A DNA stretch of 52,514 nt from an uncultured Clostridia bacterium. GTDB lineage: Bacteria; Bacillota; Clostridia; Oscillospirales; Ruminococcaceae. Under the pieces are notes generated by a model. The model was not told where the DNA came from, made no database searches, and was given only the letters and a program-made list of their open reading frames with translations. The translations under genes and the position numbers were made by a program. How positions within the stretch are numbered: position 1 is the first letter of the stretch; each line of letters starts with the position of its first letter. The DNA is taken from positions 1-52,514 of the forward strand of contig CALWNN010000044.1 in the NCBI GenBank assembly GCA_944382845.1, read 5' to 3'. Positions 7,571 through 38,753 of this stretch are shown one piece after another.

Positions 7571-7896
7571 TTTAAATCGGAACAAAGCGTGATAAGGATG
7601 TCTGCTTTTCAGCAGACAGGCTTAATCACGTTGCGACGAAAAGCAACGGCAGACCTGCTGAATAATCATCAGACCTGCCGTTTAGGCAGACCTGCCGAAT
7701 ACTCGGCAGGGGGGACATCGGCGACTTGGTTATAACCATGCAGCGTATCTGTCGCTTTTATCGGCAGATACGCCGATAAGGGGGATGGTTCCATTAGGAA
7801 TTTCAGCGGAGGTTGTCAGGCAGTAATCCCAACCCGAATCCCCCTGAAGAGCAAACCGCGGCAAGCTGCAACTTTGGCAGTTTTCTCCGATTTAAA
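7571..7896. repeat. Family A element A1, inverted double copy with terminal inverted repeats
   Basis: The whole 326-bp stretch between the TrpX-like promoter and the end of spo0A is one repeat unit. It starts with TTTAAATCGG (7571-7580) and ends with the reverse complement CCGATTTAAA (7887-7896). The centre is the palindrome GGTTATAACC (7729-7738). The left half (minus orientation) carries the GUCUGCU-GAAA-AGCAGAC hairpin (7600-7617) and the CCTGCCGA/TCGGCAGG hairpin (7691-7710), both shared with element A2. The right half (plus orientation) begins TATAACCATG like element A5. It looks like two family A elements joined head to head. No ORF of interest lies inside. Its right end stops 10 bases short of the spo0A stop codon. 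Confidence 0.8.
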
Positions 7897-7906
7897 GAAA
7901 TAACAA

Positions 7907-8692
7907 TTATGAAGAAGCGGCAGTCATTTCGTTTCTGAAATTAATACGTATCTTGTCTGTGATCATAGCGATAAATTCACTGTTAGTAGGTTTACCCTTT
8001 TCAACGCTTATTGTATAGCCGAAAAACTTGTTTATCACCTGAACGTTCCCTCTGTCCCATGCGATCTCGATAGCGTGTCTTATTGCTCTTTCCACTCTTG
8101 ACGGAGTTGTATCGTACTTTTGCGCCACTGTGGGATAAAGAAGCTTTGTTATAGATTCAAGCATTTCCCGGTTTTCGATACAAAGAAGTATAGCGTCTCT
8201 GAGATAGTGATAACCTTTTATGTGCGCAGGAACCCCTATCTGGTGCATGATCTCGGTAACTGTTCTTTCAACGCTGAAATCATCGTTTCCTGAAGAATAA
8301 TCATTGCGTGAAGAAAAGCTTACTCCCATCATGGATCTTATTCTTTCTCCCAATATTTCTATATCAAAGGGCTTTAAGATAAATAATGCCGCTCCGTTTT
8401 CAAGCACAGACCTTTCGATAAACGGGTTGTCATAAGGACTTGTAACTATTATCTTCGGCTTTTTCATATTTAAAGTACTGACCCTTTTAAGTACTTCCAC
8501 TGCGTCTATCCCCGGCATAGCGGCGTCCATAAGTACAACGTCCGGCTGTTCGTTTCTGATAGCGTCAAGCACCACCTTACCGTCCTTGGGTCTTACAATT
8601 ACGTAAAAATCCATATTCCTTAAAACATTTGCATAGCACACTCCGAACTGTGCCGAATCATCGCCTATTAAGATTTTGATTTTTCCTGACAT
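7907..8692 (-). CDS. spo0A: Sporulation master regulator Spo0A
   Basis: A 261-residue response regulator. The receiver domain has the acidic pair D11-D12, the phosphoacceptor D56 (VVLMDAAMP) and Lys in FILKPFD. After a short Ser/Asn-rich linker comes the Spo0A DNA-binding domain with the recognition region [20 protein letters not shown]. Phosphorylated Spo0A binds 0A boxes (TGTCGAA) and starts sporulation. The start is ATG at 8692, chosen for its GGAGG site; the open frame extends 15 codons further but without one. The gene is monocistronic, separated from nrdR by two terminators, with its own promoter. Together with gerA and spoVAC it indicates a spore former. Confidence 0.97.
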
Positions 8693-8842
8693 ACAGATCC
8701 TCCTATAAATTAATTTTTTTATAAACAAGCTTGTCAAGCAATTTATTTACCCCGAATACATTCCCGGACAATTTCATATCTCTGAATTATTTATGCCCTG
8801 AAAATATAGTTTACAAGAAACTGTAAATCTTGCTCTTGGTAT

Positions 8843-8871
8843 AGAATAGCACATTTCAATTTAAAAATCAA
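8843..8871 (-). promoter_or_regulatory. Candidate spo0A promoter
   Basis: Minus strand TTGATT (8866-8871), 17 bases, TATTCT (8843-8848), about 150 bases upstream of the spo0A start. About 40 bases further upstream AGTCGAA (8911-8917) differs from the 0A box TGTCGAA at one position, so Spo0A could act on its own gene. Confidence 0.5.
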
Positions 8872-9026
8872 TAGTTTTTTTCAATTTTTTTGATATTTTT
8901 CACAGTTATTTTCGACTTTTTTATACAAGATAGCCTATAAAAATACAGCTTATCAATTATTTTTAGAAATATCGATTTTTTATATATTAATTTGCAGGCA
9001 GACAGTTTTTGTTTTAAAAATAAAAA

Positions 9027-9051
9027 ATTCCCATGAAAAGACCGTGGGAAT
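9027..9051 (-). terminator. Second terminator between nrdR and spo0A
   Basis: ATTCCCA (9027-9033) pairs with TGGGAAT (9045-9051); on the minus strand it runs into a T-rich tail. It follows the stronger terminator at 9083-9117 and isolates spo0A from upstream transcription. Confidence 0.65.
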
Positions 9052-9082
9052 CAAATGTACATATTATTTTTAATGCATAAAA

Positions 9083-9117
9083 AAGCCTCTTGTGGTTTTA
9101 ATATCCACAAGAGGCTT
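9083..9117 (-). terminator. nrdR terminator
   Basis: AAGCCTCTTGTGG (9083-9095) pairs perfectly with CCACAAGAGGCTT (9105-9117), followed on the minus strand by six T. This is a strong intrinsic terminator. The 550 bases between nrdR and spo0A otherwise hold the second terminator, the spo0A promoter and a family A end. Confidence 0.85.
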
Positions 9118-9141
9118 CTGTTTTTAAGACTTTTTTCAAAA

Positions 9142-9158
9142 TTTAAATCGGAGCAAAG
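9142..9158 (+). repeat. Family A end fragment downstream of nrdR
   Basis: TTTAAATCGGAGCAAAG, identical to the end of the full elements, then sequence unrelated to them. It lies in the 3' region of nrdR, before the terminator. Confidence 0.6.
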
Positions 9159-9242
9159 GTATGATCAGAGAGAAACAAAAGCCCTGTCACATCATAATTC
9201 CTTTTCTTAAACAGCCCCATATTAAACAGTCTCATAGGTTTT

Positions 9243-9686
9243 TCAGCAATTAAGCTCTGAAATAATTTTTATAAAGCTTTCAACGTCGTTGAAGTCCTTA
9301 TACACGGAAGCGAATCTGACATACGCCACAAGGTCAAGCTTTTTAAGTCCGGCAAGCACCTTATCCCCGATTTCGCTTGTGGTAGTTTCCGTCTGCATAG
9401 CGTTTGCATAGGTGTTTTCGATATCGTCAACAAGAGCAAGCACACTCTCAACGCTTACAGGACGTTTTTTAATTGCCGTCTGGATACCTTTGAGTAGCTT
9501 TTCACGGTCGAACTGTTCAAAGCTTCCGTCACGTTTATAGACCATAAGCAGGGGTTTTTCAACCACCTCATATGTAGTGAACCTTTTTCCGCATTTCACA
9601 CATTCACGGCGCCGGCGTTTCTTTTCGTCGCTTGGTCTTGAATCTATTACTTTTGTGTCTTCATAATTACAAAACGGACATCTCAT
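9243..9686 (-). CDS. nrdR: Transcriptional repressor NrdR
   Basis: A 147-residue protein. The zinc ribbon has paired Cys at MRCPFC (C3, C6) and CVKC (about C29, C32) flanking a basic SRPSDEKKRRRREC loop, followed by an ATP-cone (about 48-138; VYKRDGSFEQFDREKLLKGI). NrdR senses ATP/dATP and represses ribonucleotide reductase genes. Length is normal (about 150). Three residues usually present in the basic loop appear to be missing. ATG with AAGGAG 8 bases upstream. It stands alone with its own promoter and terminator; no nrd genes are nearby. Confidence 0.96.
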   Translation of the reverse strand: MRCPFCNYEDTKVIDSRPSDEKKRRRRECVKCGKRFTTYEVVEKPLLMVYKRDGSFEQFDREKLLKGIQTAIKKRPVSVESVLALVDDIENTYANAMQTETTTSEIGDKVLAGLKKLDLVAYVRFASVYKDFNDVESFIKIISELNC

Positions 9687-9735
9687 CTTTGTTGCTCCTT
9701 CTGCATTAAAAAAGTGTTGTTGCTTCTACATATAT

Positions 9736-9764
9736 ATTTTAGCACATCTTGTATCCGATTTCAA
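9736..9764 (-). promoter_or_regulatory. nrdR promoter
   Basis: Minus strand TTGAAA (9759-9764), 17 bases, TAAAAT (9736-9741), about 45 bases upstream of the nrdR start codon. Confidence 0.65.
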
Positions 9765-9868
9765 GAGACACACAAAATAAAGTTGTTGTGCAAAAAATTG
9801 TCGGCAAATCTGCCACAGGCAGGCGAAAACCTCAGACGCAAAATTGTTTTAAGGCAATGTAAAATCTC

Positions 9869-9897
9869 TTGCAATAAGAAATGAAATATGATATAAT
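9869..9897 (+). promoter_or_regulatory. Promoter of the Asp23-like/fakA operon
   Basis: TTGCAA (9869-9874), 17 bases, TATAAT (9892-9897), 45 bases upstream of the Asp23-like start codon. Confidence 0.75.
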
Positions 9898-9941
9898 AAT
9901 TGAAAATAGTTAAAAATCATAAAGAAAGGAAGCCGTGTACG

Positions 9942-10289
9942 ATGATAAAAAACGAAAACCATATCGGTGAAATAATCCTGTCAAAGGAATATCTGAAACA
10001 TCTTATCGGAAAAACAGTTACTGACTGCTTTGGTGTTGTGGGAACAAACTGCTTCGGAGCGGCTCAGGGTTTAAGAGCAGTCTTTCAAAGCTCTTCTCCG
10101 GACAACGGAGTAATAATCCGTCAAAAAGACAACAAACTGTATATCGATCTTCATATCTGCGTAAGCTATGGTATAAATCTTTCGGCAATAAGCGACAGCA
10201 TTGTAAGCAAAGTAAGATTTGCCCTTGAAAACGAAGCCGGCGTACAAGTCGCAAAGATAAATCTTTTTATTGACGATATGAAAAACTGA
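9942..10289 (+). CDS. Asp23/Gls24 family envelope-stress protein (YloU-like)
   Basis: A 115-residue alpha/beta protein with the family core GEIILSKEYLKHLIGKTVTDCFGVVG, followed by LHICVSYGINLSAISDSIVSKVRFALENEAGVQVAKINLFIDDM. YloU/Asp23 proteins are small cytoplasmic or membrane-associated proteins of unclear function that are often encoded directly before the DhaL-like kinase FakA (YloV), exactly as here. The start is ATG at 9942 with AGAAAGGA upstream; the frame is open to 9900 but that part lacks a ribosome binding site. It forms an operon with fakA, 75 bases downstream. Confidence 0.85.
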   Translation: MIKNENHIGEIILSKEYLKHLIGKTVTDCFGVVGTNCFGAAQGLRAVFQSSSPDNGVIIRQKDNKLYIDLHICVSYGINLSAISDSIVSKVRFALENEAGVQVAKINLFIDDMKN

Positions 10290-10364
10290 CTGATCCCGCA
10301 AAAACTGATCGGGGAATTTAATTTATCCTTGCAATTATTTTGCAGGTGTTAGGAGGAAATTTTT

Positions 10365-11999
10365 GTGATTGAAGGAAAACAGCTTCGCGATGCCATCATA
10401 AGCGGCGCAAACGCTATCTCCAATAACAAGAAAAGTGTTGACGAACTAAACGTATTTCCTGTTCCTGACGGAGATACCGGCACAAATATGTCCATGACCA
10501 TTTCAAACAGCGTTATGGAACTTTCAAGAATGAACGACAGCGTTACCGTTTCACAGGTGGCCGACGCTGCCGCTTCAGCCCTTTTAAGAGGAGCAAGAGG
10601 TAATTCGGGAGTTATACTTTCTCTATTGTTCAGAGGCTTTTCAAAAGGTCTTTCAGGAATGAAGGAAGCTGACTGCGACGGACTTGTAAGGGCTCTTGAA
10701 GCAGGAGTTGAAGGAGCCTATAAGGCTGTTATGAAGCCTACGGAGGGCACAATACTTACCGTTGCGAGAATGGCCGCTCAGAGAGCCAAGGAGATATCTC
10801 TATCTACAAATGACGAGATAATTTTATGGTCGGAAGTGTGCAATGCCGCAAAGGAAGCTCTTGAAAATACCCCGAACCAGCTTGAAGCGCTAAAAAAAGC
10901 CGGGGTAGTCGACGCAGGAGGCAAGGGACTTGTTATAATCTTTGACGCAATGCTTGAAACCTTTAAAACAGGAAATATCGTCAAGGCTGTGAATAAAGCT
11001 GATAAACCTGCCGTTACAGTTGAGACTTTCGCCTCTACCGTCGGTCAGTTCGACAGTGAAATAACATTTACCTACTGCACTGAAATGCTTATTACCAAAA
11101 AAGAGGACGCTCAGGACTCTTCAAAGCTCAGAGCTTATCTTGAAACCATCGGCGACTGCGTTGTGGTAGTTGAGGACGATGAAATAATAAAAGTTCATGT
11201 TCATACAAACAACCCCGGCAAGGCAATTGAAAAAGGACTTGAATTCGGGTATATCAATCTTCCCAAAATTGAAAATATGAAGCTTCAGCATGAGCAGAGA
11301 CAAAAGCAGTCGCAGACTGAATTTACGCCTGTTCCCCCTGAGAAAAAATACGGATTTGTGGCTGTTGCCGCAGGCGCCGGGCTTGAATCTGTATTTTCCG
11401 ATATAGGCGTCGACTGCATCGTCAAAGGCGGTCAGACCATGAACCCGTCAACCGAAGATATCCTTGCGGCAATAAGCGCCTGCCCGGCTGAGATTGTTTT
11501 TGTTCTTCCAAACAACAAAAATATTATCATGGCGGCTGAACAGGCGGTAAGACTTGCCGACAGAAAGGTGTGCGTTTTACAGACAAGAACAATTCCACAA
11601 GGCATGGCGGCTATGCTTGCTTTCGACCCGGACGCCGATTTCAACACAAACAGAGTTGAAATGACAAAAGCTCTTGACAACGTTTCAACAGGTCAGATAA
11701 CCTTTGCCGCAAGAGACAGCGACTATGAAGGTCACGCTATCAAGGAAGGTGAGATACTCGCCCTCGACAACGGAAAATTATCTTTTGTTGACAAGGACGT
11801 TGCCAAGGCGGCATACAAGCTTACAAAGAAGCTCGTTAAAAGCGACAGCTCTTTTGTTACGGTAATCTACGGCTCGGACGTTACAGACGAGAGTGCGGAA
11901 AGCTTGGTTTCACAGCTTCAGAGCAAATTTTCAAATCTTGAAATAAATCTCATAAACGGCGGTCAGCCCGTATATTATTATATCATTTCTGTTGAATAA
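10365..11999 (+). CDS. fakA: Fatty acid kinase FakA-like protein (DhaL/YloV family)
   Basis: A 544-residue protein starting at GTG 10365 with AGGAGG 8-9 bases upstream. The N-terminal DhaL-type kinase domain (about 1-200) has the Mg-ATP binding signature NVFPVPDGDTGTNM and the Gly-rich RGARGNSGVILS, plus GVVDAGGKGL. The central and C-terminal parts (about 230-544) match the YloV/FakA extension, including IIKVHVHTNNPGKAIEKG and FVLPNNKNIIMAAEQA. In staphylococci FakA phosphorylates fatty acids bound to the DegV-family protein FakB for phospholipid synthesis. No FakB gene is in the window. Length is normal. A family B repeat begins two bases after the stop codon. Confidence 0.9.
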   Translation: MIEGKQLRDAIISGANAISNNKKSVDELNVFPVPDGDTGTNMSMTISNSVMELSRMNDSVTVSQVADAAASALLRGARGNSGVILSLLFRGFSKGLSGMKEADCDGLVRALEAGVEGAYKAVMKPTEGTILTVARMAAQRAKEISLSTNDEIILWSEVCNAAKEALENTPNQLEALKKAGVVDAGGKGLVIIFDAMLETFKTGNIVKAVNKADKPAVTVETFASTVGQFDSEITFTYCTEMLITKKEDAQDSSKLRAYLETIGDCVVVVEDDEIIKVHVHTNNPGKAIEKGLEFGYINLPKIENMKLQHEQRQKQSQTEFTPVPPEKKYGFVAVAAGAGLESVFSDIGVDCIVKGGQTMNPSTEDILAAISACPAEIVFVLPNNKNIIMAAEQAVRLADRKVCVLQTRTIPQGMAAMLAFDPDADFNTNRVEMTKALDNVSTGQITFAARDSDYEGHAIKEGEILALDNGKLSFVDKDVAKAAYKLTKKLVKSDSSFVTVIYGSDVTDESAESLVSQLQSKFSNLEINLINGGQPVYYYIISVE

Positions 12000-12001
12000 C
12001 C

Positions 12002-12097
12002 GCAGGAAGGTTCCTGCACCCTATTCGCCGGACAAAGATAAAGCTTATTATCTTTGCTCCGAAAACTCGGACAGATAAGGTTTATTACTTTTAGAAA
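12002..12097 (+). repeat. Family B repeat, single copy after fakA
   Basis: Starts with GCAGGAAGGTTCCTGC (7-base arms, two-base centre) only two bases after the fakA stop codon, followed by ACCCTATTCGCCGG and a tail with TTTGCTCCGAAAACTC. The order of motifs is the same as in the triple arrays at 27083 and 48814. Confidence 0.7.
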
Positions 12098-12122
12098 CCG
12101 CCCTGACTCCGTGCTTAATTCA

Positions 12123-12149
12123 CCCCGACTTTCAATAGTTGGGGTTTTT
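12123..12149 (+). terminator. Terminator of the Asp23-like/fakA operon
   Basis: CCCCGACT (12123-12130) pairs with AGTTGGGG (12137-12144), then a T run. It lies downstream of the family B copy. Confidence 0.8.
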
Positions 12150-12270
12150 ATTTTTGCTCACACCCATAGCATAATAAAGCAAAAGCTTTTTCCGATATTT
12201 CCAATATAACTATAACGCCTATAACGTCAAACGGCACAAAGTGAAAATTTCATGCCTTTATTCATCAGAC

Positions 12271-12304
12271 AAAAAAACGCCCCGATACCGCTGTTAGCGG
12301 GGCG
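12271..12304 (-). terminator. pfp terminator
   Basis: CGCCCCG (12278-12284) pairs with CGGGGCG (12298-12304), followed on the minus strand by seven T. The 316-base gap between fakA and pfp is filled by the family B copy and these two converging terminators. Confidence 0.8.
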
Positions 12305-12315
12305 GGGCGCACCTG

Positions 12316-13530: not shown

Positions 13531-13575
13531 AAGCTTTCCCCTTTTTTCTTGTAAAAAAATTAAACCTTCTTTAAA

Positions 13576-13604
13576 ATTTTATCATATTATTTCCCTTTAT
13601 TCAA
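13576..13604 (-). promoter_or_regulatory. pfp promoter
   Basis: Minus strand TTGAAT (13599-13604), 17 bases, TAAAAT (13576-13581), about 50 bases before the pfp start codon. Confidence 0.65.
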
Positions 13605-13704
13605 GTGTTTTTTTTCAGCCAAATCATATTTTGTAGCCTTTCACAATGAAAACAATTACATTTCACCGCTGTTTTGTAGCTCTGCTCCCGGTTTCTTGCC
13701 ACTG

Positions 13705-13733
13705 TTGACAAAAATTAAAATGTGTGCGATAAT
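13705..13733 (+). promoter_or_regulatory. valS promoter
   Basis: TTGACA (13705-13710), 17 bases, GATAAT (13728-13733). The predicted leader is about 145 bases and contains a small ORF and a hairpin. Confidence 0.8.
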
Positions 13734-13774
13734 ATAAAGATAACATATTTATGTTTTATGAAAGGACGGATTTT

Positions 13775-13834
13775 ATGAACCGTGGTTTTGCTATCCTTTT
13801 CAACCCGACCGAACAGGCGGTTTACCGAGTCTGA
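13775..13834 (+). CDS. Possible 19-codon leader ORF upstream of valS
   Basis: ATG at 13775 with AAAGGA ending about 9 bases upstream; reads MNRGFAILFNPTEQAVYRV and stops with TGA. It lies 35 to 95 bases after the predicted transcription start of the valS promoter. Its last codons (GCG GTT TAC CGA GTC, two of them Val) form the 5' arm of an inverted repeat whose other arm lies 22 bases before the valS start. A ribosome at the end of this ORF would open that hairpin, so translation of the leader could control valS. Whether it is translated is not known. Confidence 0.4.
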   Translation: MNRGFAILFNPTEQAVYRV

Positions 13835-13857
13835 TATATTTATTTGAATTGTAAACC
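13819..13857 (+). promoter_or_regulatory. Inverted repeat in the valS leader
   Basis: CGGTTTAC and GTAAACCG form an 8-bp stem with a loop of about 23 bases. It is followed by an A-rich stretch and then the valS ribosome binding site, so it is not an intrinsic terminator. No T-box core was found in this leader. Confidence 0.45.
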
Positions 13858-13886
13858 GAAAAATAAAACCGAAAGGAATAAAAACT

Positions 13887-16511: not shown

Positions 16512-16529
16512 AAAGGAAAGGGTTGTGCT

Positions 16530-16994: not shown

Positions 16995-17000
16995 ATTTCA

Positions 17001-17029
17001 ACCCCGGCTTTTTAAAGAGCCGGGGTTTT
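17001..17029 (+). terminator. Terminator of the valS operon
   Basis: ACCCCGGCT (17001-17009) pairs with AGCCGGGGT (17018-17026), then TTT. Confidence 0.85.
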
Positions 17030-17124: not shown

Positions 17125-17147
17125 CAGACGTCAAAGTTTCTCAATGG

Positions 17148-21684: not shown

Positions 21685-21926
21685 TTTAAATCGGAGCAAA
21701 GCGTTGATAAGGATGTCTGCTTTTCAGCAGACAGGCTTAATCACGTTGCGACGAAAAGCAATCTGGTCGCTGACTGCAGCAAGCTGCAGATAGGAGCTTT
21801 GCTCCTCAGGGGTTTCAATAGTTGTTTTTATCAAAGAAAAAACAACCGGGGATTAAAACCCCCACTGAAAAACTGAATGGAACCCTGCCGAATACTCGGC
21901 AGGGGGACATCGGCGACTTAGTTATA
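21685..21926 (-). repeat. Family A element A2, structured leader of the aminotransferase gene
   Basis: A 242-bp element in sense orientation. In the minus direction it starts TATAACTAAG at the last base of the -10 box and ends in TTTAAA 61 bases before the start codon. Structures seen: CCTGCCGA/TCGGCAGG hairpin with a four-base loop (21884-21903); a closing stem GTCGCCGA with TCAGCGAC (one mismatch); a hairpin of arms GUCUGCU and AGCAGAC capped by GAAA (21715-21732) inside a longer stem; GGAGC/GCTCC hairpin (about 21793-21805). The 10-mer GCTTTGCTCC (21796-21805) is fully complementary to GGAGCAAAGC (21693-21702), which gives an alternative long-range pairing. No known riboswitch core was recognised. 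It fills the 460-base gap before DUF4363 together with its promoter. Confidence 0.75.
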
Positions 21927-23241: not shown

Positions 23242-23272
23242 TTTAAATCGGAGCAAAGCGTTATGGTATAAT
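23242..23272 (+). repeat. Family A mini-copy at the gerA promoter
   Basis: TTTAAATCGGAGCAAAGCG is followed within 12 bases by GGTATAA, which resembles the opposite element end GGTTATAA. It looks like an internally deleted copy. Its last bases supply GTATA, the possible -35 box of the gerA promoter. Confidence 0.5.
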
Positions 23273-25921: not shown

Positions 25922-27078
25922 ATTTTACTATTGCAAAAAACATAGGAATAATAGCCGCCGTAGGGGTCTTTCTGATAAGCTCCATATACGCTCCCAGGGT
26001 GAACATTGAGGACAGAGCAATCGTTCACGCAGTGGGAGTTGACAAAGCGGGAGAGGATTACGAGGTTTCTCTTCAGGTCTTTTCCACAACTCAGTCAGGT
26101 TCAAACACTCCCATTGACCCAAGCCAGCCAAACATGAAAGTTATAAGCGCAAAGGGGAAAACCATTTACGAGGGAGTTAAAAACTGCGAACTTATTTTAG
26201 GAAGCGACGCATTTATCGGTCACAACAAGCTTATCCTTTTCGGAAGCTCTCTTTACAGCGAAGAGCTTGACAGCCTCCTTGACTGGTTTCGCAGAGAAAA
26301 CGAAAATTATCTGGGAGTAGCGGTAGCTTATGCCGAAAACACCGCAAAAGAGATACTTGAAGCTCCTTTGACAGAGGGAGCGATGGCTGCTGAAAATCTG
26401 GAGGGGGTAATAAAATACGCTGTAGACTCCGGTACAACTGTAAAAAGCGATCTTCTCACTCTTATAAACGATCTTTCTGAGGAAGGCGGGTGCGGGGCGC
26501 TTCCTGTTATTTCTGTTATTGAAGAGAAAAATTCCGAAAGCGGTTCTCAGCAACAGGAGCAGGGTGGCTCTCAGAGCGAACAGCAGTCCGGAAAATACAT
26601 TGAGATCAAAAAAACCGCAATACTAAAAGACAAAAAGGCAGTGGGAGTACTTGATCCTTCTCAGACCGCAGGTATGCTCTGGATTTCGGGAAAAATGAAA
26701 AACTGCACAGTTTCCCTTAAAAGCTCCGACAGCAGTTTCAACGTCAGGCTTGAGAGCAAAAAAACATCCCGAAAAATCAACATCAAGGACGGCAGGGTTG
26801 TATTAAAGGTAAATATTAAAGCAGATCTTCGGTTGATGGAGGACGTGTCTGAAAAAACAAGGTCAGAGGCGGTGGGACTTGCAAGAGAAAGGATAATTTC
26901 CGACTGCAAAAATGCCTCGGAGGCAGTGATTGAAACTTTGAAAGCAGACGGGCTTGGTATCATGAAAGGGCTGAGAGCCTCCTGTCCGGGGTTTTACAAA
27001 CAAAACGTCGGAAATTATGAAAAAATACTTGAACACATGATAATAGAAATTTCGGTACAATCCTCCCTCTCCACCTGA
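25918..27078 (+). CDS. gerAC: Spore germination receptor subunit C (GerAC family) without a lipobox cysteine
   Basis: A 386-residue GerAC-type protein. After an N-terminal helix (about 5-24) comes IEDRAIVHAVGVDKAGEDYEVSLQVFSTT, the start of the family's first domain; the C-terminal domain is at about 215-386. A Gln/Ser-rich linker (SESGSQQQEQGGSQSEQQSG, about 199-218) separates the two halves. Typical GerAC proteins are lipoproteins with a CWD-type motif just before this point; here the equivalent residues are SIYAPRVN and there is no Cys in the first 60 residues, so the protein is probably held by an uncleaved membrane helix. ATG with AAGGAG; overlaps gerAB by four bases. A family B array begins four bases after the stop. 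Confidence 0.9.
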   Translation: MNFTIAKNIGIIAAVGVFLISSIYAPRVNIEDRAIVHAVGVDKAGEDYEVSLQVFSTTQSGSNTPIDPSQPNMKVISAKGKTIYEGVKNCELILGSDAFIGHNKLILFGSSLYSEELDSLLDWFRRENENYLGVAVAYAENTAKEILEAPLTEGAMAAENLEGVIKYAVDSGTTVKSDLLTLINDLSEEGGCGALPVISVIEEKNSESGSQQQEQGGSQSEQQSGKYIEIKKTAILKDKKAVGVLDPSQTAGMLWISGKMKNCTVSLKSSDSSFNVRLESKKTSRKINIKDGRVVLKVNIKADLRLMEDVSEKTRSEAVGLARERIISDCKNASEAVIETLKADGLGIMKGLRASCPGFYKQNVGNYEKILEHMIIEISVQSSLST

Positions 27079-27082
27079 CCGG

Positions 27083-27313
27083 GCAGGAATGTTCCTGCAC
27101 CCTTTTCGCCGAACCTTGATAAAAATCCTGCCTTCGCACCGAAAATTCCAGACCGATAAAGTTTAAAACTTTGACAAATCGGCAGGAAAGTTCCTGCACC
27201 CTTTTCGCCCAACTTGGATAAAATCCTGCCTTTGCACCGAAAATTCCAGACCGATAAAGTTTAAAACTTTGACAAATCGGCAGGAAAGTTCCTGCACCCT
27301 TTTCGCCGAACTT
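27083..27313 (+). repeat. Family B array, three copies after gerAC
   Basis: Palindrome cores GCAGGAA(T/A)GTTCCTGC start at 27083, 27182 and 27280 (99 and 98 base spacing). Each is followed by ACCCTTTTCGCC. The intervening tails, with TTTGCACCGAAAATTCCAG and TAAAGTTTAAAACTTTG, are nearly identical; the third copy is cut short. The array starts four bases after the gerAC stop codon and precedes the operon terminator. Confidence 0.9.
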
Positions 27314-27344
27314 TTATAAGGTTTTATTTTGTGCCAACGGGCAA

Positions 27345-27383
27345 AAAAGCAGGTCTTGACACAACGGACAAGACCTGCTTTTT
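27345..27383. terminator. Bidirectional terminator between gerA operon and SGNH esterase
   Basis: AAAAGCAGGTCTTG (27345-27358) pairs with CAAGACCTGCTTTT (27369-27382), with A/T runs on both sides, so it can work on both strands. Confidence 0.85.
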
Positions 27384-27418
27384 AAAAATCGGAGCAATGC
27401 CGATTAAACTTGGTTATA
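27381..27418 (-). repeat. Family A mini-copy after the SGNH esterase gene
   Basis: A 38-base internally deleted copy. In the minus direction it begins TATAACCAAG, identical to the starts of A1 and A3, and ends near TTTAAA. The core keeps only AATCGG/CCGATT with a seven-base loop. It lies 13 bases after the stop codon of the esterase gene and merges with the terminator. Confidence 0.6.
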
Positions 27419-29982: not shown

Positions 29983-30004
29983 TCTTAATATTATTTAAAG
30001 TAAA

Positions 30005-30041
30005 AATCCTCCCTTGGGACAATCCCATGGGAGGATTTTTT
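30005..30041 (+). terminator. Terminator of the secreted esterase gene
   Basis: AATCCTCCC (30005-30013) pairs with GGGAGGATT (30029-30037), then TTTT. Confidence 0.85.
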
Positions 30042-30091
30042 AATTCGTCATTAACAATTACAATTCATTGTTCAGCGTTTGGTACTCAAAG

Positions 30092-30180
30092 GTTATAACC
30101 CCTACTGAAAGACTGAACGGAACCTGCCTTACAGGAGGAAGACCCGCCGAATACGCAGGGGGACATCGGCGACTTGGTTA
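30092..30180 (-). repeat. Family A element A3, partial, directly after the dehydratase gene
   Basis: Minus direction: TAACCAAGTCGCCGATGTCC follows the stop codon of the 410-residue gene without a gap. It continues through the GCCGAATA-type hairpin region and TTCAGTCTTTCAGT, shared with A2 and A4, to about GGTTATAACC at 30092. The TTTAAA end is not seen, so the copy is truncated. It is in sense orientation but in a 3' region, unlike A2 and A4-A6. Confidence 0.65.
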
Positions 30181-31413
30181 TCACACCCTTGCGTTTGCAA
30201 GCATAAGCTTTATGCGGTTTTCCTGATTTACCTTTGTCGCTCCCGGGTCGTAGTCAATGGCGACAATGTTCGCTTCAGGATAAGCCTGCTTTATAACTCT
30301 TGACATTCCCTTTGCAACAATATGATTCGGCAGACAGCCAAAGGGCTGAGTGCAGATGATGTTTTCCGTTCCCGTTTCTGCAAGAGCCGCCATTTCAGCG
30401 GTTATAAGCCAGCCCTCGCCCATTTTCACGCCCTGATTGATGTACTTGTCCGCACATTTCCTTAAATGTTCAAAGTCATGAGGAGGCGTAAAAACTCCGT
30501 GTTCCTTTATAATTTTTATCTGCTTTTTCTGAAACTTGTAAAGCACGTCGTATCCGATGGAATAACCTAAAGTCAGCTTTGTTTTCTTGTCGTAAAGAGA
30601 AGCGTCGTTTACAACGTTAATTGCACAGTACAGCACAAAATCCATAAGCCCCGGAACATTAGGCTCGCACCCCTCTGAAATGAGAAACTCGTTCAGGTCG
30701 TTGTTTGCAAGAGGGGAGTATTTAACGTAGATTTCTCCCACTATGCCTACCTTGGGCTTTTTCACGTCCGAACGCTCAATAGAAGCAAAATCGTCAAGTA
30801 TTGCCCTGTAATGAGCAGTGGTGTTTGTAAACTTGTTTTTCTCAAAAAGCTTTGCAAGCCTGTTCTGCCACTTGTCTAACATCTTGTCAGTATCGCCCTT
30901 GTTTATCTCGTAGGGTCTGCACTGATTGTAAAGAAGCATTAACAGGTCGCCGTACATTACAGCATATACAAGCTTTATCATCATGGGAACAGTAAGCCTG
31001 AATGCGGGATTTTTCTCAAGCCCGCTGAAATTAAGGGAAATTACAGGCACCTGAGGAAACTGTGAGGATATGGCTTTTCTTATAAGGTGAATGTAATTTG
31101 ACGCTCTGCATCCGCCCCCTGTCTGGGACATAAGAAGCGCAGTTTTGTTTACGTCGTACTTTCCGCTTTTAAGAGCGTCCATAAACTGCCCGATAACCAG
31201 AAGAGCAGGATAACAGGTATCGTTGTGGGTGTTTTTAAGCCCCTCGTCAACTACCCTCTGACCTCTGTTCTGCAAAAGCTCCATTTTATAGCCATAGGTC
31301 CTTAAAATGTTGATTATAAGCTTGAAATGAATAGGAAGCATATCCGGCACAAGTATGGTGTAGTCCTTTTTCATTTCTTCGGTAAAAATCGTCTTTTTAA
31401 CTCTCTCAGACAT
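30181..31413 (-). CDS. Acyl-CoA dehydratase activase-related protein, C-terminal half (HgdB/DUF2229-like)
   Basis: A 410-residue soluble protein matching the C-terminal part of the very large 2-hydroxyacyl-CoA dehydratase activase-like proteins common in Clostridia. Visible Cys motifs that may hold Fe-S clusters: NTHNDTCYPALLVIGQ, MSQTGGGCRASNYI and CTQPFGCLPNHIVAKGM. Its ATG overlaps the end of the 1,000-residue partner by eight bases with a GAGG site just upstream, so the two halves are made together as separate chains. Such systems use ATP to deliver low-potential electrons to Fe-S proteins; the acceptor here is unknown. Element A3 starts immediately after its stop codon. Confidence 0.8.
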   Translation of the reverse strand: MSERVKKTIFTEEMKKDYTILVPDMLPIHFKLIINILRTYGYKMELLQNRGQRVVDEGLKNTHNDTCYPALLVIGQFMDALKSGKYDVNKTALLMSQTGGGCRASNYIHLIRKAISSQFPQVPVISLNFSGLEKNPAFRLTVPMMIKLVYAVMYGDLLMLLYNQCRPYEINKGDTDKMLDKWQNRLAKLFEKNKFTNTTAHYRAILDDFASIERSDVKKPKVGIVGEIYVKYSPLANNDLNEFLISEGCEPNVPGLMDFVLYCAINVVNDASLYDKKTKLTLGYSIGYDVLYKFQKKQIKIIKEHGVFTPPHDFEHLRKCADKYINQGVKMGEGWLITAEMAALAETGTENIICTQPFGCLPNHIVAKGMSRVIKQAYPEANIVAIDYDPGATKVNQENRIKLMLANARV

Positions 31414-34363: not shown

Positions 34364-34432
34364 TATATACTCTCTGCCCTTTCCGATCTCTGGAGATCTC
34401 TCCTTATTTGCCCATTTCAAAAAACTGCCAAG

Positions 34433-34547
34433 TTTAGATCGTCGCAGATGAGCTTTGCTCCTATATCTTTCGGCGGGGAATTATATCCTCGACTGAAAGA
34501 CTGAATAAACCCTGCCGAAGTCTGGGGACATCTGCGACATAGTTATA
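34433..34547 (-). repeat. Family A element A4, structured leader of the dehydratase activase operon
   Basis: A 115-base element in sense orientation. In the minus direction it starts TATAACTATG nine bases after the -10 box and ends at GATCTAAA, a variant of the usual end. The outer stem is perfect: GTCGCAGATG (34441-34450) pairs with CATCTGCGAC (34529-34538). Inside are the CCTGCCGAAG region, GACTGAAAGACTGAA and the GAGCTTTGCTCC hairpin. It ends 70 bases before the start codon. Confidence 0.75.
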
Positions 34548-34556
34548 TACTCTATT

Positions 34557-34585
34557 AGTATACAACATTTTAAAATTTTTTTCAA
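34557..34585 (-). promoter_or_regulatory. Promoter of the dehydratase activase operon
   Basis: Minus strand TTGAAA (34580-34585), 17 bases, TATACT (34557-34562). Transcription would start at about 34550, the first bases of element A4, leaving a leader of about 187 bases. Confidence 0.75.
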
Positions 34586-34645
34586 GTGTTTTATATTACC
34601 GGAGGCTTTTTGTTCCGACTGCGGGAAATTTGTTCAATATGCCAC

Positions 34646-34674
34646 TTGCGGTTAAGCTTTACGAGGGTTATAAT
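34646..34674 (+). promoter_or_regulatory. Promoter of the EamA transporter gene
   Basis: TTGCGG (34646-34651), 17 bases, TATAAT (34669-34674). Transcription would start at about 34681, inside the first bases of element A5. Confidence 0.65.
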
Positions 34675-34677
34675 ATG

Positions 34678-34801
34678 TATAACCATGTTGCAGACGCGGA
34701 ATTTCAGCAAAGAGCAATAGGAATCCTATACTGCCCTCCGCCCTGAGGAGCAAAGCTCCCTGCAACGTAAGCAAGCTTATCACGCTTTGCTCCGATTTAA
34801 A
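34678..34801 (+). repeat. Family A element A5, structured leader of the EamA gene
   Basis: A 124-base element starting TATAACCATG three bases after the -10 box and ending CCGATTTAAA 23 bases before the EamA start. GGAGCAAAGC (34747-34756) is fully complementary to GCTTTGCTCC (34784-34793), and the same 10-mer can instead form the local GGAGC/GCTCC hairpin, as in A2. Divergent from A4: the two leaders and their promoters fill the 460-base gap. Confidence 0.75.
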
Positions 34802-34824
34802 AACCACAGAAAGGCAACTTTGAA

Positions 34825-35697
34825 ATGACAAACACAAAAAAGCACTTAGGAATAATTTACATAACTCTTTCGGCATTCTGCTTTACATTAATGAACATAT
34901 TCGTACGGCTTTCGGGGGATCTTCCATCTATCCAGAAAAGCTTTTTCAGAAACTTTGTAGCGTTGTTTTTTGCGCTTATCATACTTGTCAAAAATCATAC
35001 TCCCATAAAACCTGTTGACAACAGGAATCTGAAATTTTTCTTAATCAGAGCGGCGGCAGGTACTGTCGGAATATTAGGAAACTTTTACGCAGTTGACCAC
35101 CTTGTTTTATCGGACGCGTCGATGCTCAACAAGCTGTCGCCGTTTTTTGCAGTGATTTTTTCCGCTTTGTTCTTAAAGGAAAACGTAAAGCCATTTCACA
35201 TTATCACCCTTCTTACCGCTTTTGCAGGAGCGATATTTATAATAAAGCCCTCCTTTTCAAACGTGGATCTTTTTCCTGCTGTTATGGGCTTCATAGGGGG
35301 CATGGGCGCAGGAGCGGCATACACGGCGGTAAGGCATTTGGGTCAGAAGGGCGAGCATGGTCCGTTCATTGTATTTTTCTTTTCGGTATTTTCCTGCCTT
35401 GTGACGCTTCCGTACCTTTTTTTCGATTATCATCCTATGAGCCTTTATCAGGTGCTTTGCCTGCTTTTTGCAGGTCTTGCGGCTTCGGGAGGTCAGTTTG
35501 CCATTACTGCGGCGTACTGCTATGCGCCTGCAAAGGAAATTTCCGTTTACGATTATTCACAAGTGATATTTTCCGCAATTCTTGGATTTTTCATTTTTCA
35601 GCAAATCCCGGACGGCATGAGTTTTATGGGATATTTTCTCATTATTGCAGCGGCTGTTGCAATGTTTATTTACAACAACAGAAAGTCTGAGGGCTGA
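34825..35697 (+). CDS. EamA/DMT-family transporter
   Basis: A 290-residue protein with ten predicted membrane helices in two EamA repeats (about 8-140 and 150-285). The conserved start IIYITLSAFCFTLMNIFVRLSGDLPSIQKSFFRN and the LNKLSPFFAVIFSALFLKENVKPFHIITLLTAFAGAIFIIKP segment are typical. These proteins export or import metabolites such as amino acids; no substrate can be named. ATG with AGAAAGG 10 bases upstream. Monocistronic behind element A5; no clear terminator was seen before the converging gene at 35704. Confidence 0.9.
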   Translation: MTNTKKHLGIIYITLSAFCFTLMNIFVRLSGDLPSIQKSFFRNFVALFFALIILVKNHTPIKPVDNRNLKFFLIRAAAGTVGILGNFYAVDHLVLSDASMLNKLSPFFAVIFSALFLKENVKPFHIITLLTAFAGAIFIIKPSFSNVDLFPAVMGFIGGMGAGAAYTAVRHLGQKGEHGPFIVFFFSVFSCLVTLPYLFFDYHPMSLYQVLCLLFAGLAASGGQFAITAAYCYAPAKEISVYDYSQVIFSAILGFFIFQQIPDGMSFMGYFLIIAAAVAMFIYNNRKSEG

Positions 35698-35703
35698 CGA
35701 TTA

Positions 35704-36345
35704 TTAAAATGCCAGTTGACATATTCCGAGAGCAAGGATAAATCCTCCTCCCAAAACCGAAAGGTCAAGGCGTGTGTTTATTTTAAGGGAGAGCATCCGC
35801 CCGGCTTTTTCTCCGGCGCATATAAAGCTCAGTCCCGTAATAAACGCAGCTGCGGCGGCAATGCCTTTTTGTGACGGCGAAAATCCCACTCCCGCAGAAA
35901 ATCCCGTTACAAAAGAATCGGGAGAAAGAGCAAGCCCTAACACAAATGCTTCTTTCAGGGAAAGCTCCTTTGAGTTATCGCTGTCGGCTTTTTTTTCGTC
36001 AAGAATTACCGACATCATAAGGCTTTCTTTTTTTCCCTTGGATATGAACCTCTTGTAAAGCCCGGCAATGGGCTTTTGAAAAATCATAAATATCCCGAAG
36101 GCAATAAGTACCCAGCCTCCCACGGCTTTCGCAACGTCTGTATTTATCAATATCAGCGGACTTTCAGAAAGACATAACGCGGCCCACAAGGCGGCTGTTC
36201 CCACAAGGGAAACTAAAAAGGCGCTTTGAAAGCTGATTTTTATTTTGCCTGCGCCGTAAGCTATGGAGGAAGCCAGAAGGTCGGAGCAGACTCCCAAAGT
36301 AAGCAAAATTATTTTAGCCAGAATATTATCTCCCTTCTCTTTCAT
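35704..36345 (-). CDS. YtaF-like sporulation membrane protein (MntP-related)
   Basis: A 213-residue protein with about six membrane helices. It resembles the MntP/YtaF group: LGVCSDLLASSIAYGAGKIKISFQSAFLVSLVGTAAL in the first half and ALSPDSFVTGFSAGVGF in the second, with paired conserved Asp in helices. YtaF is a conserved sporulation-linked protein of unknown role, while MntP exports Mn. A charged central loop (KGKKESLMMSVILDEKKADSDNSKE) separates the halves. Start uncertain: the ATG at 36345 has a poor site, and AAGGGAG lies inside the first codons, so a later non-ATG start is possible. Confidence 0.75.
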   Translation of the reverse strand: MKEKGDNILAKIILLTLGVCSDLLASSIAYGAGKIKISFQSAFLVSLVGTAALWAALCLSESPLILINTDVAKAVGGWVLIAFGIFMIFQKPIAGLYKRFISKGKKESLMMSVILDEKKADSDNSKELSLKEAFVLGLALSPDSFVTGFSAGVGFSPSQKGIAAAAAFITGLSFICAGEKAGRMLSLKINTRLDLSVLGGGFILALGICQLAF

Positions 36346-36448
36346 TGCAAATTTCTTTTACAAGTTATGCAAAAGGAAGAGAAGTTGTGATGACTGTACG
36401 AAATTGACGGGATAATTGTCACGAACAGAAAAACAGAAAGGAAAAATC

Positions 36449-37462
36449 ATGGAGCTTAAGGAAAAAATTCTTGAAATACTTGAAAAAAACCGTGGAATTG
36501 CCGTTTCGGGAGGCGGACTTGCAAAAGAGCTTGGCGTCTCAAGAAGCGCGGTATGGAAGTGTATTGAAAATCTAAGGGAAGAAGGCTATGAAATCTCTGC
36601 GGTAACAAACAGGGGATATGTTCTCTCAGAAAACTCCGACAGCTTGTCCGCCCAGGGAATAACCGCTGTTTTAGGACAAAGCAGATATATTATCTCAACC
36701 TCTCCTTCGGTCACTTCCACAAACGACCTGTTAAAGGAACAGGCCCACAAAGGCGCGGCGGAATACACAGTTTTAGCGGCGGAGGAGCAGACCGCAGGAA
36801 AGGGCAGGCTTGGACGGAGATTTGAATCCCCCGCAAGATCGGGACTTTATATATCAATAATTTTAAGACCGGATATGAAAGCCGAGGATTCCCTTTATAT
36901 CACCACCTCTGCGGCGGTGGCTGTTGCAAGGGCAATTGACGAAATAAAGGGCGAGCCGGGTAAATCACGGATAAAATGGGTAAATGATATTTACATCGGC
37001 GACAAAAAGGTGTGCGGAATACTCACCGAAGCCGCCATCGACTTTGAAACAGGTCAGCTTGAATATGCCGTTTTAGGAATAGGAGTAAACCTTTTTCCAT
37101 CTGAGGAGTTAGAAAAAAATGTAGGCTCAAAGGCAGGAAGCGTTTTTGATTCTCCCGGACCTGATGTTTTTAACGCAAGAAATATCCTTGCCGCCAAAAT
37201 TCTGAAAGAGCTTGACAGGAGTCTTGCTCCCGAAAACTTTTCTTCTAATATCGAGGAATACAAAAAGCGTTCATATCTTGACGGCAAGCGAGTCGTTATT
37301 TCAAGAGGAAACGAGGAGTTTGAGGGGTTGGTTTTAGGAATCGACCATAAGGCAAGACTTGTTGTAAAGGACAACAACGGACAGGAGCAGGTTATTTCCT
37401 CAGGAGAAGTAAGCCGTGTCATACTGCCTCAGCTCAAAGGAGAAGATACCCCAGACCGATAA
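36449..37462 (+). CDS. birA: Bifunctional biotin operon repressor / biotin-protein ligase BirA
   Basis: A 337-residue two-function protein. N-terminal winged helix (about 1-65: AVSGGGLAKELGVSRSAVWKCIENLREEGYEI), biotin-protein ligase domain (about 85-265) with GKGRLGRRFESPARSGLY as the biotinyl-AMP loop and KWVNDIYIGDKKVCGILTEA, and the C-terminal SH3-like domain (about 280-330). It loads biotin on carboxylase subunits and, with biotinyl-AMP, represses biotin genes. The start is ATG at 36449 with AAAGGA; the frame is open to 36416. Its last 29 bases overlap the converging gene of unknown function. No biotin genes lie nearby. Confidence 0.95.
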   Translation: MELKEKILEILEKNRGIAVSGGGLAKELGVSRSAVWKCIENLREEGYEISAVTNRGYVLSENSDSLSAQGITAVLGQSRYIISTSPSVTSTNDLLKEQAHKGAAEYTVLAAEEQTAGKGRLGRRFESPARSGLYISIILRPDMKAEDSLYITTSAAVAVARAIDEIKGEPGKSRIKWVNDIYIGDKKVCGILTEAAIDFETGQLEYAVLGIGVNLFPSEELEKNVGSKAGSVFDSPGPDVFNARNILAAKILKELDRSLAPENFSSNIEEYKKRSYLDGKRVVISRGNEEFEGLVLGIDHKARLVVKDNNGQEQVISSGEVSRVILPQLKGEDTPDR

Positions 37463-37766
37463 GCAGTTTTACGTCTGCTCCGTTTTTTGCAAGTATGTAA
37501 ATAATCATTGCAATAAGGGCTTTTTCCTCGTCGATCTTGAATTGCGAAAGCAACTCCTCAAGCCTGAAAGGACTGCTTTTTTGGTTGTTTGACTGCGGAC
37601 GCCTTTCAGTCGTCCCTTCTGCGGAATCATTCTTTTCATGCTGTGGGTATGGGGGAGTATGCTTTTCTCCTCCCGAAATAAGCTCTCTTGAACGTCTGCG
37701 CATTTCTCTGACGCGCTCGGCTGCGTCCTGTTGCATGGACTTAAATTCCTTATCAGATAATGCCAA
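37434..37766 (-). CDS. Conserved unknown protein, third gene of a small-protein trio
   Basis: A 110-residue protein starting at TTG 37766, chosen because GGGAGG lies 8 bases upstream; an earlier TTG at 37784 has no site. The N-terminal part is helical and basic (MQQDAAERVREMRRRSRELI), the middle is polar and low in complexity (about 35-72), and the C-terminus is a hydrophobic helix pair (EEKALIAMIIYILAKNGADVKLLIGLGYLLL) that may insert in a membrane. It overlaps the upstream unknown gene by 14 bases and the end of birA (opposite strand) by 29. Function unknown. Confidence 0.7.
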   Translation of the reverse strand: MALSDKEFKSMQQDAAERVREMRRRSRELISGGEKHTPPYPQHEKNDSAEGTTERRPQSNNQKSSPFRLEELLSQFKIDEEKALIAMIIYILAKNGADVKLLIGLGYLLL

Positions 37767-38199
37767 GAAGATCGCCTCCCACAAGTCCGCTTTCTTTCAG
37801 AACAGGATAAAGGGACATAAGTCTGAAGATTTTTATGAGTCTGTCGACTTTATTACGGTTTTCCTCATTCAGATGAGGCTTCAGCGCAAGAAGCAGGTCA
37901 ATATTCTTGTCCTTTGTATTTGCCTTTTCCATAACAGACTGCAATACAAGAAGCTTGTTCATGTCAAAACACCCGGCCTGATCATTTGAGGGGGGCTTGT
38001 TTTGTGAAGAAAAAGCTTTGATAAGTCCCGAAAGGTCAAGGCTACGACTGCTGTCAGGCGGGTCTTGCTTTACAGGCGGGTTAGCTTCGGTGGCGCTGTT
38101 ACTATCAGAAAACATTTTTGCAAGCTCGTTTAACTGCTTCATGCTTTCCGGGTCGTTGAGAACTTTGTTTATGCTGTCCATGATATTCATGTCGTCCAA
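37753..38199 (-). CDS. Conserved unknown protein, second gene of a small-protein trio
   Basis: A 148-residue soluble protein. Start TTG at 38199 with AAAGGGGG 8 bases upstream; TTG 38205 is too close to the site. It has an N-terminal helical stretch (SINKVLNDPESMKQLNELAKMF), a Pro/Ser/Asp-rich linker (about 35-75), and a C-terminal helical domain (LLVLQSVMEKANTKDKNIDLLLALKPHLNEENRNKVDRLIKIFRLMSLYPVLKESGLVGGDLLG). Similar domain patterns are familiar from Oscillospiraceae genomes as hypothetical proteins next to genes like its two neighbours (recollection, not searched). Function unknown. Confidence 0.7.
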   Translation of the reverse strand: MDDMNIMDSINKVLNDPESMKQLNELAKMFSDSNSATEANPPVKQDPPDSSRSLDLSGLIKAFSSQNKPPSNDQAGCFDMNKLLVLQSVMEKANTKDKNIDLLLALKPHLNEENRNKVDRLIKIFRLMSLYPVLKESGLVGGDLLGII

Positions 38200-38321
38200 G
38201 TTCAATTCCCCCTTTCAGCGGTATGAGATCAGAGATCAGCTTTTACAGGTCAATGGCGAAAGATCAGGAATCTGTCAGATCCAAGACCTTTCGCTTATGT
38301 TGATTGTCGTTGAATATTGTG

Positions 38322-38567
38322 TTACTTTCCTGTCAGTTTCTTATATATTGCCTGCGCCTGAGGCGTGGAAAGAAGCTTTTCAGCCTGTTTCGGATCCGAA
38401 AGAGCCTTCTTGAGCATTTCACCCTGAGAATCGGAGACCTTGGTCAGAGCCTTGTCAAAGGTTCCGTTCTGAAGCTGATTTTTCAAAGCTTCAGGTGTTG
38501 TTCCAAGCTTTGCGCTTGCGGTTTTAAGAAGCATTTCAAGCTGTTTTTCGTTCAGGTTCAAGTTCAT
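38322..38567 (-). CDS. Conserved unknown protein, first gene of a small-protein trio
   Basis: An 81-residue all-helical soluble protein rich in Lys, Leu and Ala (LNEKQLEMLLKTASAKLGTTPEALKNQLQNG, then SDPKQAEKLLSTPQAQAIYKKL). The DPKQAEKLL-STPQAQAI pattern recalls the DPESMKQL-NELAKMF pattern at the start of the second gene, so the two may be related. The start is ATG at 38567, eleven bases after AAAGG; ATG 38576 touches the site. Between this gene and the next is an imperfect hairpin (about 38248-38310, TCAATGGCGAAAG with CTTTCGC...GTTGA). Function unknown. Confidence 0.7.
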   Translation of the reverse strand: MNLNLNEKQLEMLLKTASAKLGTTPEALKNQLQNGTFDKALTKVSDSQGEMLKKALSDPKQAEKLLSTPQAQAIYKKLTGK

Positions 38568-38630
38568 AATAATCATTTCCTTTCGCCGTTTGATAAATTT
38601 GATAAAACTGTTAAGTTATTTTAAAGCCTA

Positions 38631-38659
38631 TTGCAATTGAAAAAAAGTTATGCTATACT
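38631..38659 (+). promoter_or_regulatory. Promoter of the YfcE-like phosphodiesterase gene
   Basis: TTGCAA (38631-38636), 17 bases, TATACT (38654-38659), with transcription expected at about 38666, just upstream of element A6. Confidence 0.7.
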
Positions 38660-38676
38660 TTTTCAATGGTTGTAAC

Positions 38677-38753
38677 TATAACCACGTCGCAACGTGATTA
38701 AGCCTGTCTGCTGAAAAGCAGACATACTTATCAACGCTTTGCTCCGATTTAAA
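38677..38753 (+). repeat. Family A element A6, shortest structured leader
   Basis: A 77-base element in sense orientation: TATAACCACGTCGC, then the long hairpin with arms GUCUGCU/AGCAGAC and a GAAA loop (38706-38723) inside GAUUAAG/CUUAUC, then GCTTTGCTCCGATTTAAA. It keeps only the 3' module of A2 and ends 19 bases before the TTG start of the phosphodiesterase gene, close to its ribosome binding site. Confidence 0.75.

Follow-up and report, generated by a model that had tools for sequence, protein, structure and literature searches.

The 52,514-nt window analyzed here (contig CALWNN010000044.1, assembly GCA_944382845.1, from an uncultured Clostridia bacterium of the Ruminococcaceae) contains several copies of a structured repeat, four of which (A2, A4, A5, and A6) begin with TATAAC and run in sense orientation to the next gene. 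This repeat is probably a family of non-autonomous mobile elements that works like the PATEs derived from IS200/IS605, probably via single-stranded DNA. A sequence-only reading of the same DNA had proposed either a cis-regulatory RNA class spread to several operons or a small mobile element targeting promoter starts, and mobility is now strongly supported by more than 100 dispersed copies, sharp ends, tandem junctions, identical copies at contig ends, element-free sites in relatives, and related families in other genera. The modular mobile repeat family of Ruminococcus-type bacteria described below is real and probably recently active. It is similar in kind to the BOX repeats, but with features of single-strand-type insertion.

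Copy Number, Anatomy, and Ends of the Repeat

The left end of the element (TAACYAAGTCGC) occurred 105 times in the 2.14-Mb host genome (G000), compared with 2 times for the reversed pattern, and the right end (TTTGCTCCGATTTAAA, at most 1 mismatch) occurred 121 times, compared with once for its reversed control. Both counts are far above chance. Elements were counted in 116 merged stretches (449 kb) around 100 of the 105 left and 100 of the 121 right motif matches, so that all counts are lower bounds: at least 131 left ends (≤5 mismatches) and at least 123 right ends (≤3 mismatches) were found, and at least 79 left–right pairs formed elements of 41–332 nt. Each copy opens with a near-constant left end (CCAAGTCGCCGATGTCC after TATAA), continues with a varying set of hairpins, and closes with a right end that is likewise near-constant (GATTTAAA, most often GCTTTGCTCCGATTTAAA). 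The interior hairpins CTGCCGAATATTCGGCAG and TCTGCCTCATATTAGGCGGG, the long hairpin CAGTTTTTCAGTGGGGG...CCCCCACTGAAAAACTG, and the GGAGCAAAGCTCC, CTGCAGCTTGCTGCAG, and AGCTCCGAAGGAGATGT repeats were present, absent, or multiplied between copies. In the AGCTC-N-GAA-N-GAG unit, the two variable positions were T/A in 43 cases, C/G in 18, T/G in 2, and C/T in 1, and the pair was kept in 63 of 64. The A2 copy was predicted to fold at −98.0 kcal/mol (z = −9.8 against its own shuffles). Among the ends without a close partner, 7 candidate left–right pairs lying 1.7–4.8 kb apart enclosed called genes, and a parent element may be among them. At one locus of the host genome (L018, C8:7990), the left end TATAACCAAGTCGCCCATGACC leads into another kind of hairpin, which is very long and ends in GGAGGTCATGGGCG, and the usual right end is missing.

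The boundaries of the element were sharp on both sides. At the left ends (at least 131), the letters of TATAA were conserved in 87, 96, 96, 99, and 100% of copies, a conservation that is partly circular because these letters belonged to the search pattern; one base further 5′, conservation was near background. On the right side, conservation stopped after TTTAAA (117 right ends, ≤2 mismatches). No terminal inverted repeats were evident on inspection of the end logos, and no target duplication was seen in the logos or in the pyrC–pyrF comparison given below; the left TATAA differs from the right TTTAAA. Two tandem right–left junctions in the host genome joined TTTAAA to TCAAG and TTTAAA to CCAAG, and the tandem junctions in the relative RUG060 joined GATAAA to TTAAATTACTG and to TCTAATTACCG. 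These junctions indicate that the element's own ends lie just after TATAA and just after TTTAAA.

Copies truncated by contig ends were compared as well. The left-end copies at the ends of C25, C29, and C55 were identical over 126 nt, and the right-end copies were identical over 127 nt (C65/C79) and 126 nt (C2/C72), which suggests recent copying or activity in this genome. Several contigs (L031, L098, L103, L127, L137, L143, and L146) stop 126–132 nt into identical element copies, a pattern that suggests recent duplication together with an assembly k-mer of about 127.

Element-Free Sites in Congeners

In three congeners with PyrF 89–91% identical to that of the host, the pyrC–pyrF gap lacked the element and measured 30 (G001), 32 (G003), and 38 nt (G002). 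The gap of the host genome measured 134 nt. There, as in the relatives, pyrC ends with Leu-stop, which lies in TTATAA. Next comes the element, and downstream of its right end GATTTAAA there remain 20 nt, which include the ribosome-binding region. The stop codon of pyrC thus lies in the TATAA directly 5′ of the insert, and the TTATAA stop is native at pyrC. At the A2 site, all four congeners lacked the element and kept the promoter-like sequence TTGCAA-17-TACAAT (TATAAT in G004), and A6 was likewise absent from all four. A4 was not seen in any of the 17 homologous upstream regions inspected (80 loci fetched), and the two closest homologues (L162 and L163) keep a promoter at the corresponding place. 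The element-free congener loci indicate that insertion took place in the host's own lineage, 3′ of a TATAA and without visible duplication. Empty sites with target duplication in sister strains had been named beforehand as support for a mobile element; the empty sites seen here are between species and show no visible duplication.

A scan of the 80 fetched loci for both ends gave 6 matches, and its reversed control gave 5; even so, L176 and L220 among the six turned out to be real family members. Matches to the left motif in congeners were rejected as family copies, since in the six stretches viewed by eye no second end or hairpin set followed. One weak match to the right-end model in congener G001 (E 4e-4) looks related by eye, and the congeners may carry rare, diverged copies.

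Orientation and Placement Relative to Genes and Replication

For the placement counts, genes were called with a purpose-written script. Of the elements in tandem gaps, 67 ran in the same direction as the flanking genes (sense) and 15 in the opposite direction (antisense; p = 5e-9). Convergent gaps held 20 of the 173 elements, and 15 of the 173 were antisense to both neighbors. With respect to replication, 73 of the 98 assignable elements had the leading-strand orientation. In divergent and convergent gaps, where the genes give no cue, the leading strand was favored 26:5 when assigned by gene strand (31 of 55 assignable, p = 2e-4) and 31:10 when assigned by GC skew (41 of 55, p = 1.5e-3). Among the 82 tandem-gap elements, the leading strand was assignable for 50 by genes and for 64 by skew. 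The sense bias can be explained at least partly by the leading-strand bias, and the gene-direction and replication-strand biases are not fully separable. For Ruminococcus sp. Marseille-P6503, the GC skew of 40 samples, with switch points set by eye, put 25 of 36 right ends in the leading-strand orientation (25:11, p = 0.03); the skew is reversed at 650–720 kb of C4.

The TAA stop of the upstream gene lay inside TATAA in 21 of the 77 elements with a same-strand 5′ neighbor. A same-strand gene followed 82 of the 121 elements with a known right end, and its start was within 30 nt in 31 and within 60 nt in 41 of these 82. Where an opposite-strand gene ended toward the element, the right end was within 60 nt of that gene end in 17 of 34. 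The equal shares (41/82 and 17/34) show that closeness is not special to gene starts.

Promoters at the Left End

A scan for TTGnnn-16/18-TAnnnT-like pairs at 128 left ends placed the start of the −10 box at −34 to −18 in 10 cases, at −17 to −1 in 8, and at 0 in 2. Six more distant windows of 17 bp (−170 to −69) each held 1–3 such starts among the 128 ends, and the two intervening windows held 7 and 3. Promoter placement was rejected as a general rule for this genome, since only a minority of elements show it, though more than in the distant windows. A looser promoter score at the left ends gave no clear signal. The picture differed in genus g82 (RUG060, that is, G414/G340, and G245). Of its eight copies with a readable left end, seven had TATAA followed by T and preceded at exactly 17 nt by a TTG hexamer, and all seven sat exactly at a sigma-A-like −10 box; the eighth was of the TATAACC type without a TTG hexamer. 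A contig end truncates one further copy, and the right end of one of the seven is degenerate. The TATAAT-type copies precede genes that, from the look of their translations, we take to be ruvC, fabD, and tpiA. The base after the right end was T in 6 of 6 RUG060 copies, and in two of them this base is the first of a tandem copy. The g82 placement may reflect either promoter targeting or retention of promoter-placed copies.

The claim that the element targets promoter starts holds only in part, since the constant feature is the TATAA directly 5′ of it, which in this genome often has a stop-codon context and only sometimes a promoter. Tentatively, the element might target the melted −10 region of a working promoter, with the folded single strand inserted after the TATAA of the non-template strand of the open complex or at a similar single-stranded site. 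In that case, the −35 and −10 boxes would stay intact and the element would become the transcript start, which would account for the exact −10 placement of all seven TATAAT-type g82 copies and of A2. If true, the element would act as a leader RNA that is mobile and uses transcription itself in order to spread.

Related Families and Covariation

Right ends with at most 2 mismatches were found in Ruminococcus sp. Marseille-P6503 (36) and in RUG060 (6). A covariance model of the right end, applied to 397 family genomes, gave matches at E ≤ 0.001 in at least 14 of them; because the search scored 13 candidates per genome, the counts per genome are lower bounds. The matches were strong in G000, G152, G163, G182, G245, G248, and G340, and the remaining weak ones are probably mostly chance. 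Judged by identical coordinates, G413/G248 and G414/G340 are the same assemblies. On inspection, the same architecture was present in G152, G163, G182, and G245. Three copies of G182 agreed with host copies at 128 of 146, 166 of 193, and 130 of 146 columns, despite the different genus, which suggests either transfer or slow change. Exact matches to the left motif AAGTCGCCGATGTCC numbered 78 in the host genome and 1–3 in each of 8 of the 396 other family genomes. A2 matched none of the plasmid and phage records searched, and two exact end patterns matched no viral contig. A third end pattern matched one viral contig (IMGVR_UViG_3300035501_000194), which holds a complete element of the Marseille-P6503 type (L386, ~1950–2250, minus strand), and phages or prophages may thus carry the family.

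The right-end stems were further assessed in 49 distinct right ends. Changes on both sides were observed in 17 of 20 pairs, and 86.9% of cells paired (0 of 500 shuffles; slid controls 35–48%), counts that lean toward the tested structure because the alignment of 50 loci chosen by us was fitted to it. The closing stem, viewed by eye, changed in concert between families (GTCGC/GCGAC, GCGCC/GGCGC, TCACCG/CGGTGA, and TTACCG/CGGTAA). Covarying stems, together with 5′ ends at the TATAAC boundary, had been named beforehand as support for a regulatory RNA class; the stems do covary, but such a structure fits folded single-stranded DNA as well as RNA. Against Rfam, the whole window gave 0 matches at gathering scores, in keeping with the earlier statement that no described family was recognized. 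Ten matches around A2 (E 0.41–9.6), all far below gathering, were rejected as evidence of a known family. A literature search yielded no description that we recognized as this repeat, which does not show that none exists.

Elements Within the Window

The copies in the window are listed in Table 1. The four leader elements of the sequence-only reading were recovered in the sequence as it had described them, from TATAAC to at or near TTTAAA, each with a −10 box at or 3–17 nt before its start, and domain matches agree with its naming of an aminotransferase, a dehydratase activase, an EamA transporter, and a phosphodiesterase as the genes behind them.

Table 1 Copies and remnants of the repeat in the window, with neighboring genes and promoter-like pairs (all pairs spaced by 17 nt)
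Feature	Positions	Strand	Ends and basis	Gene context	Promoter-like pair
A1, full element, 164 nt	7571..7734	−	left end exact, right end 1 mismatch	upstream of ABC substrate-binding protein gene (PF04392)	
A1b, diverged element	7731..7896	+	by eye: TATAACCATGCAG ... CTCCGATTTAAA		
Right-end remnant	9142..9159	−	right-end pattern match		
A2, full element, 242 nt	21685..21926	−	right end GATTTAAA	leader of aspartate aminotransferase (Asp_aminotransf)	TTGCAA/TACAAT; first T of A2 is the last base of the −10 box (1-nt overlap)
Right-end remnant	23242..23259	−	right-end pattern match		
Minimal copy, left end fused to right end	27381..27418	−	read from sequence: TATAACCAAG...GCTCCGATTTTTAAA		
A3	30039..30182	−	left-end match; degenerate right end GAATTAAA; boundary at 30039 set by eye	immediately 3′ of the TGA stop of gene 30181-31413	
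A4	34433..34547	−	degenerate right end GATCTAAA	leader of BadF/BcrA-type activase (BcrAD_BadFG/DUF2229)	TTGAAA/TATACT; −10 box ends 9 nt before A4
A5	34678..34801	+	right end GATTTAAA	leader of EamA transporter (EamA)	TTGCGG/TATAAT, 3 nt before A5; another pair, less strong, is present as well
A6, short element, 77 nt	38677..38753	+	right end GATTTAAA	leader of metallophosphoesterase (Metallophos_2)	TTGCAA/TATACT, 17 nt before A6

A1 and A1b lie head to head, and their left ends have the palindrome TTATAA (7730–7735) in common, as if one target had served from both strands. A second repeat family, with units about 98 nt apart and the sequence GGCAGGAAAGTTCCTGCACCCTTTTCGCC, is present in 7 copies in the window (11995–12042, 27076–27320, and 48807–49050), and a sequence like it closely follows an element elsewhere in the host genome (C47:5959).

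Probable Mode of Mobility and Alternative Explanations

According to passages of two sources (PMC7290912 and PMC6006769), PATEs and other IS200/IS605 derivatives insert 3′ of a fixed tetra- or pentanucleotide, lack inverted repeats and target duplication, carry hairpins near their ends, and favor the lagging-strand template. The repeat described here likewise has end hairpins, no evident terminal inverted repeats or duplication, insertion 3′ of the fixed pentanucleotide TATAA, and an orientation bias. It differs in that no intact TnpA or parent was found, guides were not recognized, and the interior is large and multi-hairpinned. In the mechanism that we favor, an enzyme acting in trans would excise the element and insert it as a folded single strand. 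Its cuts would fall 3′ of TATAA in the target and 3′ of TTTAAA at the element's right end, and the target would not be duplicated. Insertion would occur preferentially on the lagging-strand template, as by the TnpA of IS200/IS605. TATAA is found in −10 boxes and ahead of start codons, and many copies accordingly lie where transcription would make them the 5′ leaders of unrelated genes. The leader position follows mainly from the occurrence of TATAA and the orientation of the copies; effects on expression, or regulation by individual copies, are possible. As the agent of such mobility, an unknown or lost single-strand recombinase is our first choice and is modestly favored.

Several points weigh against this explanation. 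The element-free sites come from comparisons between species, and the ancestral sequence is known only that far. The Y1 transposase (PF01797) was not found at E ≤ 0.001 in G413, G414, or G182, and the one PF01797 match of the host genome (L061, C31:251-484) is broken by 2 stops and lies in an unrelated context in which no such ends were seen. With no intact Y1 gene in these four carrier genomes, our claim is limited to an element that works like, and not one that is, IS200/IS605; a Y1 enzyme may possibly reside elsewhere, having been lost or being carried by another strain or a plasmid. Viewed by eye and for canonical pairing, the left 25 nt showed no TTATA-like guide next to the left hairpin that would pair with TATAA. 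In gaps between lagging-strand genes, the sense:antisense ratio was 6:3 or 6:6, too few to separate the causes, and the p values given above are optimistic because elements on one contig are not independent. Finally, a leading-strand bias alone is weak evidence, as BOX, RUP, and SPRITE, in the portion of PMC3049150 considered, show 60.8–63.3% leading-strand insertions that mirror coding bias.

One rival is a class of cis-regulatory leader RNAs, akin to riboswitches or attenuators, that spread to many operons and was retained because it regulates them. It would explain the sense orientation in tandem gaps, the right ends within 30 nt of a same-strand start, the covarying right-end stems, and the g82 copies at −10 boxes. 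The remaining placement data weigh against a regulatory class: copies occur in convergent gaps and antisense to both neighbors, orientation tracks replication where genes give no cue, and right ends are equally near gene ends and gene starts. Internal hairpins are gained and lost, the left motif is expanded in one species (78 here, 0–3 in each of the 396 others), and the genes are many and unrelated, without an Rfam match at gathering score. As the primary explanation, a regulatory class thus lacks support, and we regard it as unlikely.

Returning to mobile elements, a serine or tyrosine recombinase could move the element as a double-stranded circle, crossing over at the AA that TATAA and TTTAAA have in common. 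The tandem junction of TTTAAA with CCAAG and the single-copy ends fit crossover at a short AA core, and this agent was ranked second within mobile-element explanations. By itself, it predicts neither the replication-strand bias nor the conserved right-end stems, and we consider it rather unlikely overall.

Movement in trans by a DDE transposase, as a miniature inverted-repeat transposable element, was also considered, since part of PMC3049150 reports that BOX ends resemble the inverted repeats of ISSpn2 and suggests such an origin for BOX. The modular, BOX-like anatomy and the mostly intergenic placement are consistent with it. On inspection of the ends, however, terminal inverted repeats were not evident, and because the left TATAA differs from the right TTTAAA, a target duplication was not seen either; we regard a DDE-moved element as improbable. 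Retro-mobility would mean that reverse transcription of the structured transcript is coupled to insertion into the lagging-strand template, as for group II introns. It would fit folded elements with leading-strand orientation, but the group II intron end motif GUGYG...AY was not seen by eye and many copies have no recognized promoter just upstream, and we consider it most improbable.

Comparison With Known Repeats and Significance

Among known repeats, BOX of Streptococcus pneumoniae comes close by description: in PMC3049150, BOX is a family of short dispersed repeats in which the outer modules are constant and the inner ones vary in number, with a predicted RNA fold, and it is reported there to affect downstream genes. 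The repeat studied here resides in another host, has no evident inverted repeats or duplication, and carries TATAA at its left, and its leading-strand share is 73 of 98 compared with 60.8% for BOX. REP and REPIN sequences with TnpA-REP (RAYT) are also high-copy, intergenic, folded DNA; in excerpts of PMC6006769, REPs measure 21–65 nt, have a GT[AG]G foot, and are accompanied by a cognate Y1 gene in many hosts. The present elements are longer, and their four carrier genomes yielded no intact Y1 gene.

If the mobile-element explanation is right, Ruminococcus-type gut bacteria carry BOX-like mobile repeats of their own, and one species has them in the leaders of numerous unrelated genes. The elements would then offer naturally occurring leader insertions that can be set against element-free congener loci, and they would allow the idea of promoter-guided single-strand transposition to be examined. 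They would also be a warning that a structured, covarying leader common to unrelated genes need not be a regulatory RNA class.

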